The notes below the pieces were generated by a model. It was not told the DNA's origin, did no database searches, and was given only the letters and a program-made list of their open reading frames with translations. A stretch of DNA of 36,745 nucleotides from Bdellovibrio sp. GTDB taxonomy: Bacteria; Bdellovibrionota; Bdellovibrionia; Bdellovibrionales; Bdellovibrionaceae. Location of the stretch: assembly GCA_014376935.1 (NCBI GenBank), contig JACMQO010000167.1:1-36745 (forward strand), in the 5' to 3' direction. Shown here piece after piece: positions 31,917 through 36,745 of this stretch. The position numbers were made by a program, and so were the translations under genes. Positions within the stretch are counted from its first letter, which is position 1, and each line of letters begins with the position of its first letter.

Positions 31917-31944
31917 AACGCAAGCAGTCATGGCTGCTTGCGTT
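31917..31944 (+). terminator. Hairpin terminator between the lipoprotein gene and mreB
   Basis: A perfect 11-bp stem, AACGCAAGCAG (31917-31927) and CTGCTTGCGTT (31934-31944), with a 6-nt loop, starts 14 bases after the lipoprotein stop. It has no T-run, so termination may be partial or depend on Rho. The mreB -35 box begins 12 bases later. Confidence 0.5.
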
Positions 31945-31955
31945 AAATATCCGCA

Positions 31956-33036
<1,081 letters not shown>

Positions 33037-33045
33037 TATGTTTCT

Positions 33046-34437
33046 ATGACTAATTTAACTGAACAACGCCTTTGGGTCGTTGTTCATCTTTTATATCCGA
33101 ACTCATCGCAAGCTTTAGATGTTTATTATACATTGCTAAGCTTCGTTTCTAAAAAATCGGAAAAATATTACGCCCACAATTTATATAAAAAATTAGTTCA
33201 GCTTTATTTAAAAACCGAGCCCGTTCGTTCAAGTCAGCCGTTTCAAGTTTTTGAAAATCAGAAGTTAGATAATTGGAATATCATTTATAAAAGATCACCG
33301 AAGCAACAGTTGCTGGTTCTTTGCGGTTTAATCGTATTTAAATTTACAACTGAAGAGCTGGGTGAAATTTTAGGAATTCCCGAACAGAAGATTAAATTTT
33401 TAGTGAATCAGTCTTTTAAAAAGACGTCACAAATTAGTATTTTGAAGCCTGCGGTAAAAACAGATTTTTCATACAAAAAGAAATCTGAAAACCAAGTTTC
33501 CTATTTGTTTACGAACGAAAATTTGGTCGAACACGGATTGGGACTGTTAAACGAAGACGAGCGAAGCCGAGTCGATCAGGGTCTATCGATTTACAAACAA
33601 TTAGTGCCGTTACAAAGTTACTACAAAGAAATTATCGACGAAATGCAAAACTTAATCGGTGATCAGGCCAATCCTTACTTCGTGCAAGCTGCCGAAGCGC
33701 AACCTGAATTAGATTATGAACAACCTACGATCAGTTTTGACTTTTTAAAAGTTAGAAAGAAACTGATCGCATTATCAGTCGCTTCGGTTCTATTTATTGC
33801 ATTGGTTAGTATTCGTCCAAGCTGGTTGCGAAACTTATCATTTAAATCGGGAACAAAATCGATCGTCGTTCAAGAAATTAAAAGTCAGCCGTATATGACA
33901 GAAAAAGATTCGGTCGCAAAAAATGATGATGATCAAATCAATTTACATGAAATGCCGGTTGCCAAAAATGAAGCCGCCAATAGTACAAAAGATAAACTAC
34001 CAGGCACGGTCGTTGCCGCGGTGGGCTTAAAGTCAGTAACTAAGGCCGAGACGAAGATCGAGCCCAAACCAGAAGCGAAGCCGATTGTGGCTAAAGCAGA
34101 TTCAAAGCCGGTTCAAAAAACCGCAGAGCCTTCAGCTAAAAAAGTTAGCGGTTTGTACCGGGCTTCGATTGTCGTGACCGATTTAAATTCAACGGCGTCT
34201 CGTATCACCGAAAAATTGGTCGCACTGGGTGGTAAAAAAGCTGGTGAAGTGGAATTAGGTTGGAAAAAAACACCAACGTTGTCATATTACCATTTAACAA
34301 TTCCTGAAGAAAATTTAGAAGCGGCTAAAACTTTCTTGGGTAACTTTGGTAAGCTGAATATTCAATTTGAAAATCATCCCCGTCTAGTAACTGCAGGCAC
34401 AAACCGAATTATCTTAGAGGTTAAAGAAAGTGAATAA
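33046..34437 (+). CDS. Membrane-anchored sigma-factor-like protein with DUF4349-like outer domain
   Basis: A 463-residue protein of unknown function with an unusual layout. Residues ~1-60 are helical with a faint ECF-sigma region 2 feel. Residues ~98-126 (FTTEELGEILGIPEQKIKFLVNQ, split here by its turn) look like a sigma region 4 helix-turn-helix. A transmembrane helix lies at ~240-257 after KVRKK, which places the N-terminus inside. Residues ~258-367 form a linker rich in Lys, Pro, Ala and Glu, long enough to cross the periplasm. Residues ~370-461 resemble DUF4349, with the GG turn and the alternating hydrophobic pattern (YHLTIPEENLEAAKTFLGNF). It starts 9 bases after mreB and overlaps the kinase gene by 8 bases. 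Function is unknown. Confidence 0.72.
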   Translation: MTNLTEQRLWVVVHLLYPNSSQALDVYYTLLSFVSKKSEKYYAHNLYKKLVQLYLKTEPVRSSQPFQVFENQKLDNWNIIYKRSPKQQLLVLCGLIVFKFTTEELGEILGIPEQKIKFLVNQSFKKTSQISILKPAVKTDFSYKKKSENQVSYLFTNENLVEHGLGLLNEDERSRVDQGLSIYKQLVPLQSYYKEIIDEMQNLIGDQANPYFVQAAEAQPELDYEQPTISFDFLKVRKKLIALSVASVLFIALVSIRPSWLRNLSFKSGTKSIVVQEIKSQPYMTEKDSVAKNDDDQINLHEMPVAKNEAANSTKDKLPGTVVAAVGLKSVTKAETKIEPKPEAKPIVAKADSKPVQKTAEPSAKKVSGLYRASIVVTDLNSTASRITEKLVALGGKKAGEVELGWKKTPTLSYYHLTIPEENLEAAKTFLGNFGKLNIQFENHPRLVTAGTNRIILEVKESE

Positions 34438-36370
34438 TCTTAGGCCAATAAAAAAGTATCGTTCACTGCGAACGATACTGGTTTTATGGTTTTTTATATT
34501 TTCGATCATTCCGCTTGGTTTTGTGGCTTGGTATTCATTGGTTAAATTTGAAAAAGCGATTGATAATGAATTATCACAAAGATTAAGCGGCAATGGCCGC
34601 GAAATCGAAGTTATGATTGCCGACTACTACGCCACTTTTATGGTAAACCAAGATAACTACATAAAAAACCCCCACTTAATTTACAATATGTCAGTTTCAG
34701 ATGGTCCAGCCATTCGTGAAATGTCTTTAAGTTGGATCGCATCCGACATCGCAACGTCTTTGTCTTTTTATGATCGTGAAGGCAAACTTTTATCGTCTGT
34801 TTTCAAAGATGATAAAGGTGTCGTTAGAACGTTTGAGCCGACCGCCGGAAAAATTTTACTGAACGAAAAGTATCTAAGCCATTTAAAGCAAAAGCCCAAC
34901 CTAGGGTTAGCGGATTTTCCAAATTCAAATAAATTATCGTTAATTCTTTTTTCAAAAGTGCTGTCAACGTCGGGTAAAATCGTAGGTTATTCAGAGCAGA
35001 TTATTGATTTAAAAGAGCAGTTTTTAAATAAAGTAAAGGCACGCTTAAAGCTAGATGCATTTTTAGTCCGCGATACGGGTCAAATTTTGGCATCGACTCA
35101 AAAAGAATTTAAAACCATTTCGAAAGATTTTATCCATCAGTATTTACAAGCACAAGAACCTGATAAATTCTTTGAAATTAAAACTGAATCGCAACCTTAC
35201 GGATTTATTCTATATCCGATTAATTGGGATAAATCGCGCTTTTATATCGCTTTAGGTACGACAAAGGTTGAAGCAAAGTCAGTTCTAAAAAACGTCAACA
35301 TCGCCTTTTTATCTGTCATTGCTCTAGTCATTTTATTTTTAATAATCACAATTTTTATCAGCACGGACTGGTTCTTAAAACCCATCAATGAATTGATTCA
35401 AGGATTAAAGTTTTTTGAAAGAACAGACAACTTAGTTCAACTGCCCGTTAAGAATAACACCGAAATCAGCCAGTTAACCGTCGCTTTTAATGAAATGAGT
35501 TTAAAGATCTTTCAAACACGAACAGATCTAAAAAAGAAATTAAAAGAATTGGAATTAACAAACAGTGAATTGAAAGAAGCCCAGACAAAGCTTGTGCATT
35601 CGGCTAAGATGACTAGTCTGGGGCAATTGGTTGCGGGGGTTGCGCACGAATTGAATAACCCAATTGGATTTATCTATAGTAATACGGCACATTTAACTGA
35701 TTATTCTGAAAAGCTATTTCAAATTATTGAAGGGGTTGAAAAAAACCCCACGAACTTAGCGCGTTTAAAAAATGAACTTGAGTATGACTTTATCAAAATG
35801 GATTTACCTCGTTTGATTAAGTCCTGCCAAGACGGGGCGCAAAGAACTAAAGACATTGTTTTGGGTTTAAGAAATTTCTCGAGATTAGAAGAGGCTCAGC
35901 TTAAAGAAATCGATTTGCGTGAATCGATCGATACAACACTTGAACTATTGCAGGGTGAAATTAAAAATCGCATCCAGATTCATAAGCAATATGAACCTGT
36001 ACCTAAAGTTCTGTGTTACGCTTCGCAAATCAATCAGGTGTTGATGAACATCTTATCGAATGCGGTGCAGGCTATTCCGGGTACGGGCGAAATTTGGATC
36101 TCAACTCTACCCATAAAAGCTTCTAACGATAGCCAGGGTCGCGTTCAAATATCCGTTCAAGATAGCGGTGCCGGAATGAGTACTGAAGTTTTAGAAAAAA
36201 TATTTGAACCCTTCTTTACCACGAAGGGTGTGGGGCAAGGCACAGGTCTAGGTTTAAGTATTTCTTACGGCATTATTCAAAATCATGGTGGTGAAATTCA
36301 AGTGCGATCGCAAAAGGGCATTGGAACCGAGTTCACTTTGATTATCCCGGTCAGTCCTCCTAAAAGATAA
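34430..36370 (+). CDS. Membrane sensor histidine kinase with Cache-like outer domain
   Basis: A 646-residue kinase. A first transmembrane helix (~14-36) and a second (~284-308, [19 protein letters not shown]) enclose a periplasmic domain of ~245 residues with dCache-like features. HAMP follows, with a coiled coil ([22 protein letters not shown] split across ~365-390). The dimerisation helix carries His406 ([16 protein letters not shown]). HATPase_c has the N box ([13 protein letters not shown]), G1 (DSGAGMS), F box (FEPFFTTK) and G2 (GQGTGLGLS). No receiver is attached. The start is GTG, with GAGG about 9 bases upstream inside the preceding gene, so translation is probably coupled to the sigma-like protein. 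The response regulator is not in the window. Confidence 0.93.
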
Positions 36371-36428: not shown

Positions 36429-36745
36429 GTGAAAAAGTTAAGCCAATATTTAAATTACGCTATTTTAACTCTGGTTTTAGGGTTAGTTGCTTTTTATTTT
36501 TTAGACTCTAAAAAAGTAGCGTCGGATCGTAAATTAGCAAACTCGAACGAAGCTAAGAAGCCAGTCAATGTGGATGAAGTTGTTAATAAATACATGCAAC
36601 AAACGGCGACCCAAATCATGCGTGACCAAGTCAGTTCACAAGCGGCTATTCGAATGCAGTTAAATCGTCCGGTTATCGTTAAGAAAGAAATAAAGCCAGA
36701 AATAAGACCTGAAGATATTCCGGCCGATCAGCAAATTTGGAAAAA
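36429..36745 (+). CDS. Membrane-anchored protein, truncated by the window end
   Basis: An open frame from a GTG at 36429 that stays open to the last base (105 codons plus 2 bases). It begins with Lys and a hydrophobic helix (YAILTLVLGLVAFYFL), a signal anchor or uncleaved signal, followed by a polar Lys/Ala/Asn-rich stretch and a helical region (VDEVVNKYMQQTATQIM). No domain is recognised in the visible part. It starts 58 bases after the histidine kinase, on the same strand. No clear ribosome site was seen before the GTG, so the start is the only plausible one rather than a proven one. Confidence 0.6.
   Translation, partial: MKKLSQYLNYAILTLVLGLVAFYFLDSKKVASDRKLANSNEAKKPVNVDEVVNKYMQQTATQIMRDQVSSQAAIRMQLNRPVIVKKEIKPEIRPEDIPADQQIWK

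Follow-up and report, generated by a model that had tools for sequence, protein, structure and literature searches.

A probable fusion of an ECF-type sigma factor with its membrane anti-sigma factor beside mreB in Bdellovibrio

Sigma factors that carry an anti-sigma-like regulatory extension in the same chain are described for groups ECF52, ECF48 and ECF53, for some members of ECF36 and ECF270, and for IutY, which is ECF243 (PMC8999054, PMC9249621). In IutY of Pseudomonas putida, an N-terminal ECF sigma2-sigma4 unit, one transmembrane helix and an outer regulatory domain form a single chain (PMC9249621, PMC8999054), and Prc and RseP activate this protein by proteolysis (PMC9249621). Its anti-sigma part is of the FecR type with a FecR-like outer domain, and it serves iron cell-surface signalling with a TonB-dependent receptor. 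ECF52 (SCO4117 of Streptomyces), together with ECF48 and ECF53, is arranged as ECF sigma, zinc-finger-type anti-sigma domain, transmembrane helix, Pro-rich linker and outer domain; it is described as exclusive to Actinobacteria, with a carbohydrate-binding outer domain and the zinc finger kept (PMC5826349, PMC8999054). Proteolytic release has been proposed for ECF52 (PMC5826349). In SigW-RsiW, CnrH-CnrY and RpoE-NepR, the sigma and anti-sigma factors are separate proteins.

The window analysed here is a stretch of 36,745 nucleotides from Bdellovibrio sp. (contig JACMQO010000167.1). It encodes a protein of 463 residues (33046..34437 including the stop, forward strand), which we consider, with a probability of about 0.93, to be an ECF-type sigma factor translationally fused to its cognate membrane anti-sigma factor. 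The protein shares its one-chain layout with IutY and the order of its parts with ECF52, and its sigma part is predicted to take the compact arrangement of the anti-sigma-bound SigW, CnrH and RpoE. It differs from IutY in its mreB locus, in an outer domain without a family match and in a recoded recognition helix; it adjoins mreB, whereas the accessible parts of PMC5826349 and PMC8999054 make no mention of an mreB linkage for ECF52. Because fused sigma-anti-sigma proteins are already known (PMC8999054), this one belongs to an established kind. In the literature searched, we met no precedent for its lineage, for the mreB linkage of the cassette, for this outer domain or for the recognition-helix change that accompanies the fusion. 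A preliminary description of this DNA had called a sigma part tied to the membrane unusual: the tethering is backed by the fold and by split homologues, while the groups named above are precedents for it.

The mreB locus

The mreB gene (31993..33036, forward strand; 347 aa; Pfam MreB_Mbl, E 1.2e-151) ends 9 bp before the 463-residue open reading frame, which overlaps by 8 bp the gene of a histidine kinase of 646 aa (34430..36370, forward strand); this spacing agrees with the preliminary description. The kinase consists of a transmembrane helix, an outer sensor region, a second transmembrane helix and HAMP-like, HisKA and HATPase_c domains, for which Pfam gives E 1.3e-25 (HATPase_c) and E 1.4e-6 (HisKA), with HAMP under its cut-off. 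An open reading frame for a small membrane protein follows on the same strand (36429..36743) and is truncated at the contig end; several members of the genus have a homologue of it 3' of the kinase. MreB is essential in Bdellovibrio (PMC6985089). A second, more distant mreB (47% identity) is present elsewhere in the same genome (contig C125:6433-7428, reverse strand) and fits the two-MreB pattern reported for Bdellovibrio. We found no mention of Bd0211-Bd0214 in our literature search.

A conserved promoter-like block precedes mreB (31940..31984, forward strand), comprising an upstream box GCGTTAAATATCCGC, a -35 element TTGACT (31956-31961), a 17-bp spacer and a -10-like TACCAT (31979-31984). 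The block is kept in 13 aligned members of the genus, including three without the fused gene, and a similar one is found in 19 genomes of another genus (g6). Its elements would make it a promoter of the sigma70 type, not of the ECF type, and no ECF-type promoter was seen before mreB; thus, autoregulation of the operon by an ECF sigma factor is not supported. The GCGTTAAATATC box lies upstream in the block. Only 8 bp separate the -10-like hexamer of the window from the mreB ATG, and the mRNA may therefore be almost leaderless.

Parts of the 463-residue protein

Residues 1-134 are predicted to have the two-domain fold of an ECF sigma factor, with sigma2 and sigma4 only, and this stretch of the model matches ECF sigma structures. 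The sigma2-like domain (residues 2-56; 33049..33213, forward strand) is modelled by AF2 with a pLDDT of 85-97, and its Q22, A23 and D25 are invariant across the genus. The sigma4-like helix-turn-helix domain (residues 75-131; 33268..33438, forward strand) emerges from the model, the fold matches and hhalign, and W77 is common to all 31 fused and split sequences. Taken alone, the window protein matches only Sigma70_r4 in Pfam (residues 99-126), with an E of 0.11 that is below the cut-off; no Sigma70_r2 match was listed for the fused or split proteins, in which sigma2 is recognised by its fold, and the fused profile gave only chance matches against PDB sequences.

The assignment becomes solid through relatives and structure. 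Many relatives have a split pair in place of the single gene, made up of an ECF-like sigma gene (SIG) and its membrane anti-sigma-like neighbour (ASF). Pfam finds Sigma70_r4_2 in 13 of 21 SIG proteins (best E 4e-7), and the SIG profile, run against the PDB, places SigR, SigC and SigH first among matches that are mostly ECF sigmas. For one split SIG (genome G018), the AF2 model has a pLDDT of 90.9, and its best structural matches are ECF sigmas in their anti-sigma-bound form, aligned over nearly the whole length: SigW-RsiW (Z 14.6, rmsd 2.1, 129 residues aligned), RpoE-NepR (Z 14.6) and CnrH-CnrY (Z 13.8). The same structures are matched by residues 1-133 of the fused model, at Z 13.2 for RpoE-NepR (130 aligned), 11.7 for CnrH-CnrY and 11.5 for SigW-RsiW; since the alignment behind this model contained split SIG sequences, its fold is consistent with the SIG result and is not independent evidence. 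By hhalign, the N-terminal part of the fused proteins matches the split SIG profile with E 1.2e-7 and the ordinary ECF sigmas of these genomes with E 1.7e-5. The region-4-like helix-turn-helix of the preliminary description is thereby upheld, together with a sigma-like fold for its residues 1-130.

That description covered half of the protein and missed the anti-sigma-like residues 153-201 (33502..33648, forward strand), which profile and model comparison bring out as helices like those of an anti-sigma domain. The fused family matches the split ASF profile with E 2.1e-43, aligned from residue 141. The split ASF proteins begin with a helical region, which in one of them comes just short of the zf-HC2 cut-off (E 3.1e-4; 21.2 bits against 22.2). 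Residues 153-201 correspond to what is presumed to be the anti-sigma domain in the split relatives, and the protein is therefore read as sigma plus anti-sigma. The model places helices at residues 153-158, 160-165, 170-182, 186-201 and 210-217, followed by the membrane helix. The zinc motif Hx3Cx2C is absent from the 463-residue protein, whose single cysteine is C93; this motif is not obligatory, as about 44% of class I anti-sigma members are without it (PMC7406223). From its position and homology, the domain at residues 153-201 would be expected to inhibit the sigma part. We also considered a free anti-sigma factor made by internal re-initiation and rejected it: codons 101-185 of the window gene hold no in-frame ATG, only GTG and TTG, and no candidate is common to the genus.

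The single transmembrane helix (residues 232-255 in the model; 33739..33810, forward strand) corresponds to the sole hydrophobic stretch of the protein, which peaks at residues 240-258; KVRKK precedes the helix, and the N-terminus would be inside the cell. It is followed by a linker predicted to be disordered from its low pLDDT and its Lys/Ala/Val/Pro-rich composition (residues 257-366; 33814..34143, forward strand), holding 18 K, 12 A, 10 V and 9 P among 110 residues. The chain ends in a conserved outer domain (residues 367-463; 34144..34434, forward strand) with the order b-a-b-b-a-b-b, a pLDDT above 90 and the motif GGxKAGEVELGW...YxHxxxP...HPR; it is the best-conserved part of the protein, with a mean pairwise identity of 0.49 in the genus and 0.44 in the split set. 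One membrane helix, a linker of about 110 residues and a folded C-terminal domain are thus as the preliminary description had them. It had also likened the outer domain to DUF4349 (PF14257), and here the comparison gave way: the window protein has no match, two of 22 relatives reach an E of 0.0083 at best, and in 114 genomes of the phylum, its own genome included, none was over the cut-off. Membership of DUF4349 is thus not established and a distant fold relation is possible. In a search with the fused model, the outer domain met weak structural matches to glyoxalase halves and ribosomal S6 (Z ~5). On another contig of the same genome (C41:11977-12075, reverse strand; near L120:5977-6076), about 32 codons survive that share 59% identity with the extreme C-terminal part of the fused protein; they are what is left of a second, decayed outer domain.

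Split, fused and lost forms among relatives

A homologous protein was found in 33 of the 40 relatives searched, and considering this together with the conserved gene order, the 463-residue gene is far beyond chance. Elsewhere in the family and order, 22 loci from genera other than that of the window have the arrangement mreB, SIG (~150 aa), membrane ASF (~300-430 aa) and kinase. This split cassette is homologous to the fused protein part by part and occupies the same position; it differs in having two genes and an intact sigma4 recognition motif. In the window genus, the gene is one open reading frame of 438-475 aa in each of the ten genomes that carry it, and one genome outside it (G023, locus L061) has a single fused frame of 524 aa. 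Across 369 genomes of the phylum, the fused model gives a full-length match uninterrupted by a stop only in the window genus and in G023; elsewhere it gives two matches or, in six genomes, reads through one stop. In these six split genomes, both genes are in one frame with a lone stop between them, which is one step from fusion. Bdellovibrio sp. qaytius (CP025734) and Pseudobdellovibrio MAGs are among the named organisms of the fused group. Outside the class, phylum-level matches are weak and confined to parts of the fused protein; a phage collection had no match to it.

L061 stands apart from the window genus in the MreB tree and in a concatenated tree, and it is a long branch. Since the MreB data do not reject one common origin of the fusion (p-AU 0.35), and considering this long branch, we do not claim two independent fusions.

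The sigma/anti-sigma module is gained or lost as a whole, and the kinase stays with mreB without it. The module is absent from three genomes of the window genus that sit inside the fused clade (G010, G007 and G011) and from G029 and G036 (loci L114-L118), where mreB adjoins the kinase with gaps of 5-11 bp. A trimmed form is seen in G027 (L119:6740-7482), with a SIG of 142 aa, an anti-sigma-like protein of 106 aa that has a C-terminal transmembrane helix, and no outer domain. The mreB-linked cassette of sigma, anti-sigma and kinase is widespread across Bdellovibrionales, and we found no description of it in the literature searched. Close relatives carry the pair split, fused or trimmed, or have lost it; this natural series can be used to test what a sigma-anti-sigma pair does beside a cell-shape gene and whether fusion accompanies loss of promoter recognition.

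The recognition helix and possible roles

We propose the following mechanism. In the split form, the second protein would use its anti-sigma domain to keep the sigma factor of ~150 aa at the membrane and, presumably, its outer domain to sense an envelope signal. In the window genus, the stop between the two genes would have been lost, which placed sigma2, sigma4, anti-sigma domain, membrane helix, linker and outer domain in one chain. The fused protein would then most likely sit at the inner membrane, clamped and auto-inhibited, until an outside signal leads to regulated intramembrane proteolysis that frees the sigma part in the manner of IutY; the freed part may bind RNA polymerase and act on target genes. 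RseP-type M50 proteases are encoded in the genome; neither a cleavage site nor a target gene was found for the fused protein. For the whole of this account, the fusion together with an auto-inhibited, tethered sigma factor released by proteolysis, we would give even odds.

The recognition helix (residues 113-127; 33382..33426, forward strand) bears directly on this account. The 20 aligned split sigmas all carry G at position 114 and R at position 119; position 115 is T or S, position 117 is R in 18, and position 122 is R or K in most. Further split loci have the same pattern (L098 read by eye), and L096/L131 and L099 depart from it at position 117 only. The motif G-(T/S)-x-x-x-R is present in all split sigmas examined and lost in the window protein, in its genus and in L061. 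In the genus, 114 is D, E, Q, N, S or K, 115 is mostly K, 119 is L in nine of ten and 122 is Q in nine of ten; in L061, 114 is still G, with E at 117, I at 119 and D at 122. With G114 and R119 changed or largely lost in both fused lineages, ordinary promoter reading by the fused form is doubtful, and a released sigma part might fail to read a -35 element. The preliminary description had suggested that the protein, with its sigma-type DNA-binding part, could link cell-wall or outer-membrane state to transcription: the sigma-derived part stands, and the DNA binding has become questionable.

These changes raise the possibility that the protein is a domesticated sigma factor blind to DNA, clamped to its own anti-sigma domain and serving as an envelope sensor or scaffold instead of a sigma factor. 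The replacement residues are conserved within the genus and sigma2 is as uniform as sigma4, so the recoding looks like a change of job, not decay. In known complexes, helix 1 of the anti-sigma factor normally engages sigma4 close to its -35 contacts, and helix 4 touches sigma2 (PMC7406223); a permanent clamp in cis could thus explain the recoding. However, the recognition helix of the genus remains basic, with a mean charge of +2.7, and altered DNA binding is possible. In addition, sigma2 retains A-x-D-(V/I)-(Y/F)-Q, which we take to resemble the core-binding region 2.2 of ordinary ECF sigmas. On this evidence, a DNA-blind protein is a real contender, somewhat short of an even chance. A fuller version, in which a sigma factor was captured by its anti-sigma factor in the mreB operon, lost promoter reading in both lineages with the fusion and now persists, tethered to the membrane, as a signalling domain with no role in transcription, is offered tentatively and is on balance doubtful.

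The preliminary description went further and suggested that the three act together, which would be a new type of cell-shape sensing module; in this model, the fused protein would be an obligate partner of MreB and the kinase. The operon spacing is tight and the order mreB, sigma/anti-sigma, kinase is long conserved among relatives, as our survey of the neighbourhood bears out; for cell-shape sensing itself, the indication is gene position and is indirect. However, the whole module can be deleted with the adjacency of mreB and kinase intact, as in the five genomes above, which argues against an obligate machine of three proteins, and the trimmed locus of G027 has no kinase. Such a sensor is thus improbable. 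Least probable of all, and hardly to be expected, is a sigma mimic like PhyR, whose N-terminal part would titrate some other anti-sigma factor and have no sigma activity: the sigma-like domains of PhyR do match structurally (Z 11.2 with the fused model, 12.2 with the split sigma), but true ECF sigmas score equal or better, neither Pfam nor the order of structural elements gives a receiver domain in the 463-residue protein, and the chain carries in cis an anti-sigma-like domain of its own.
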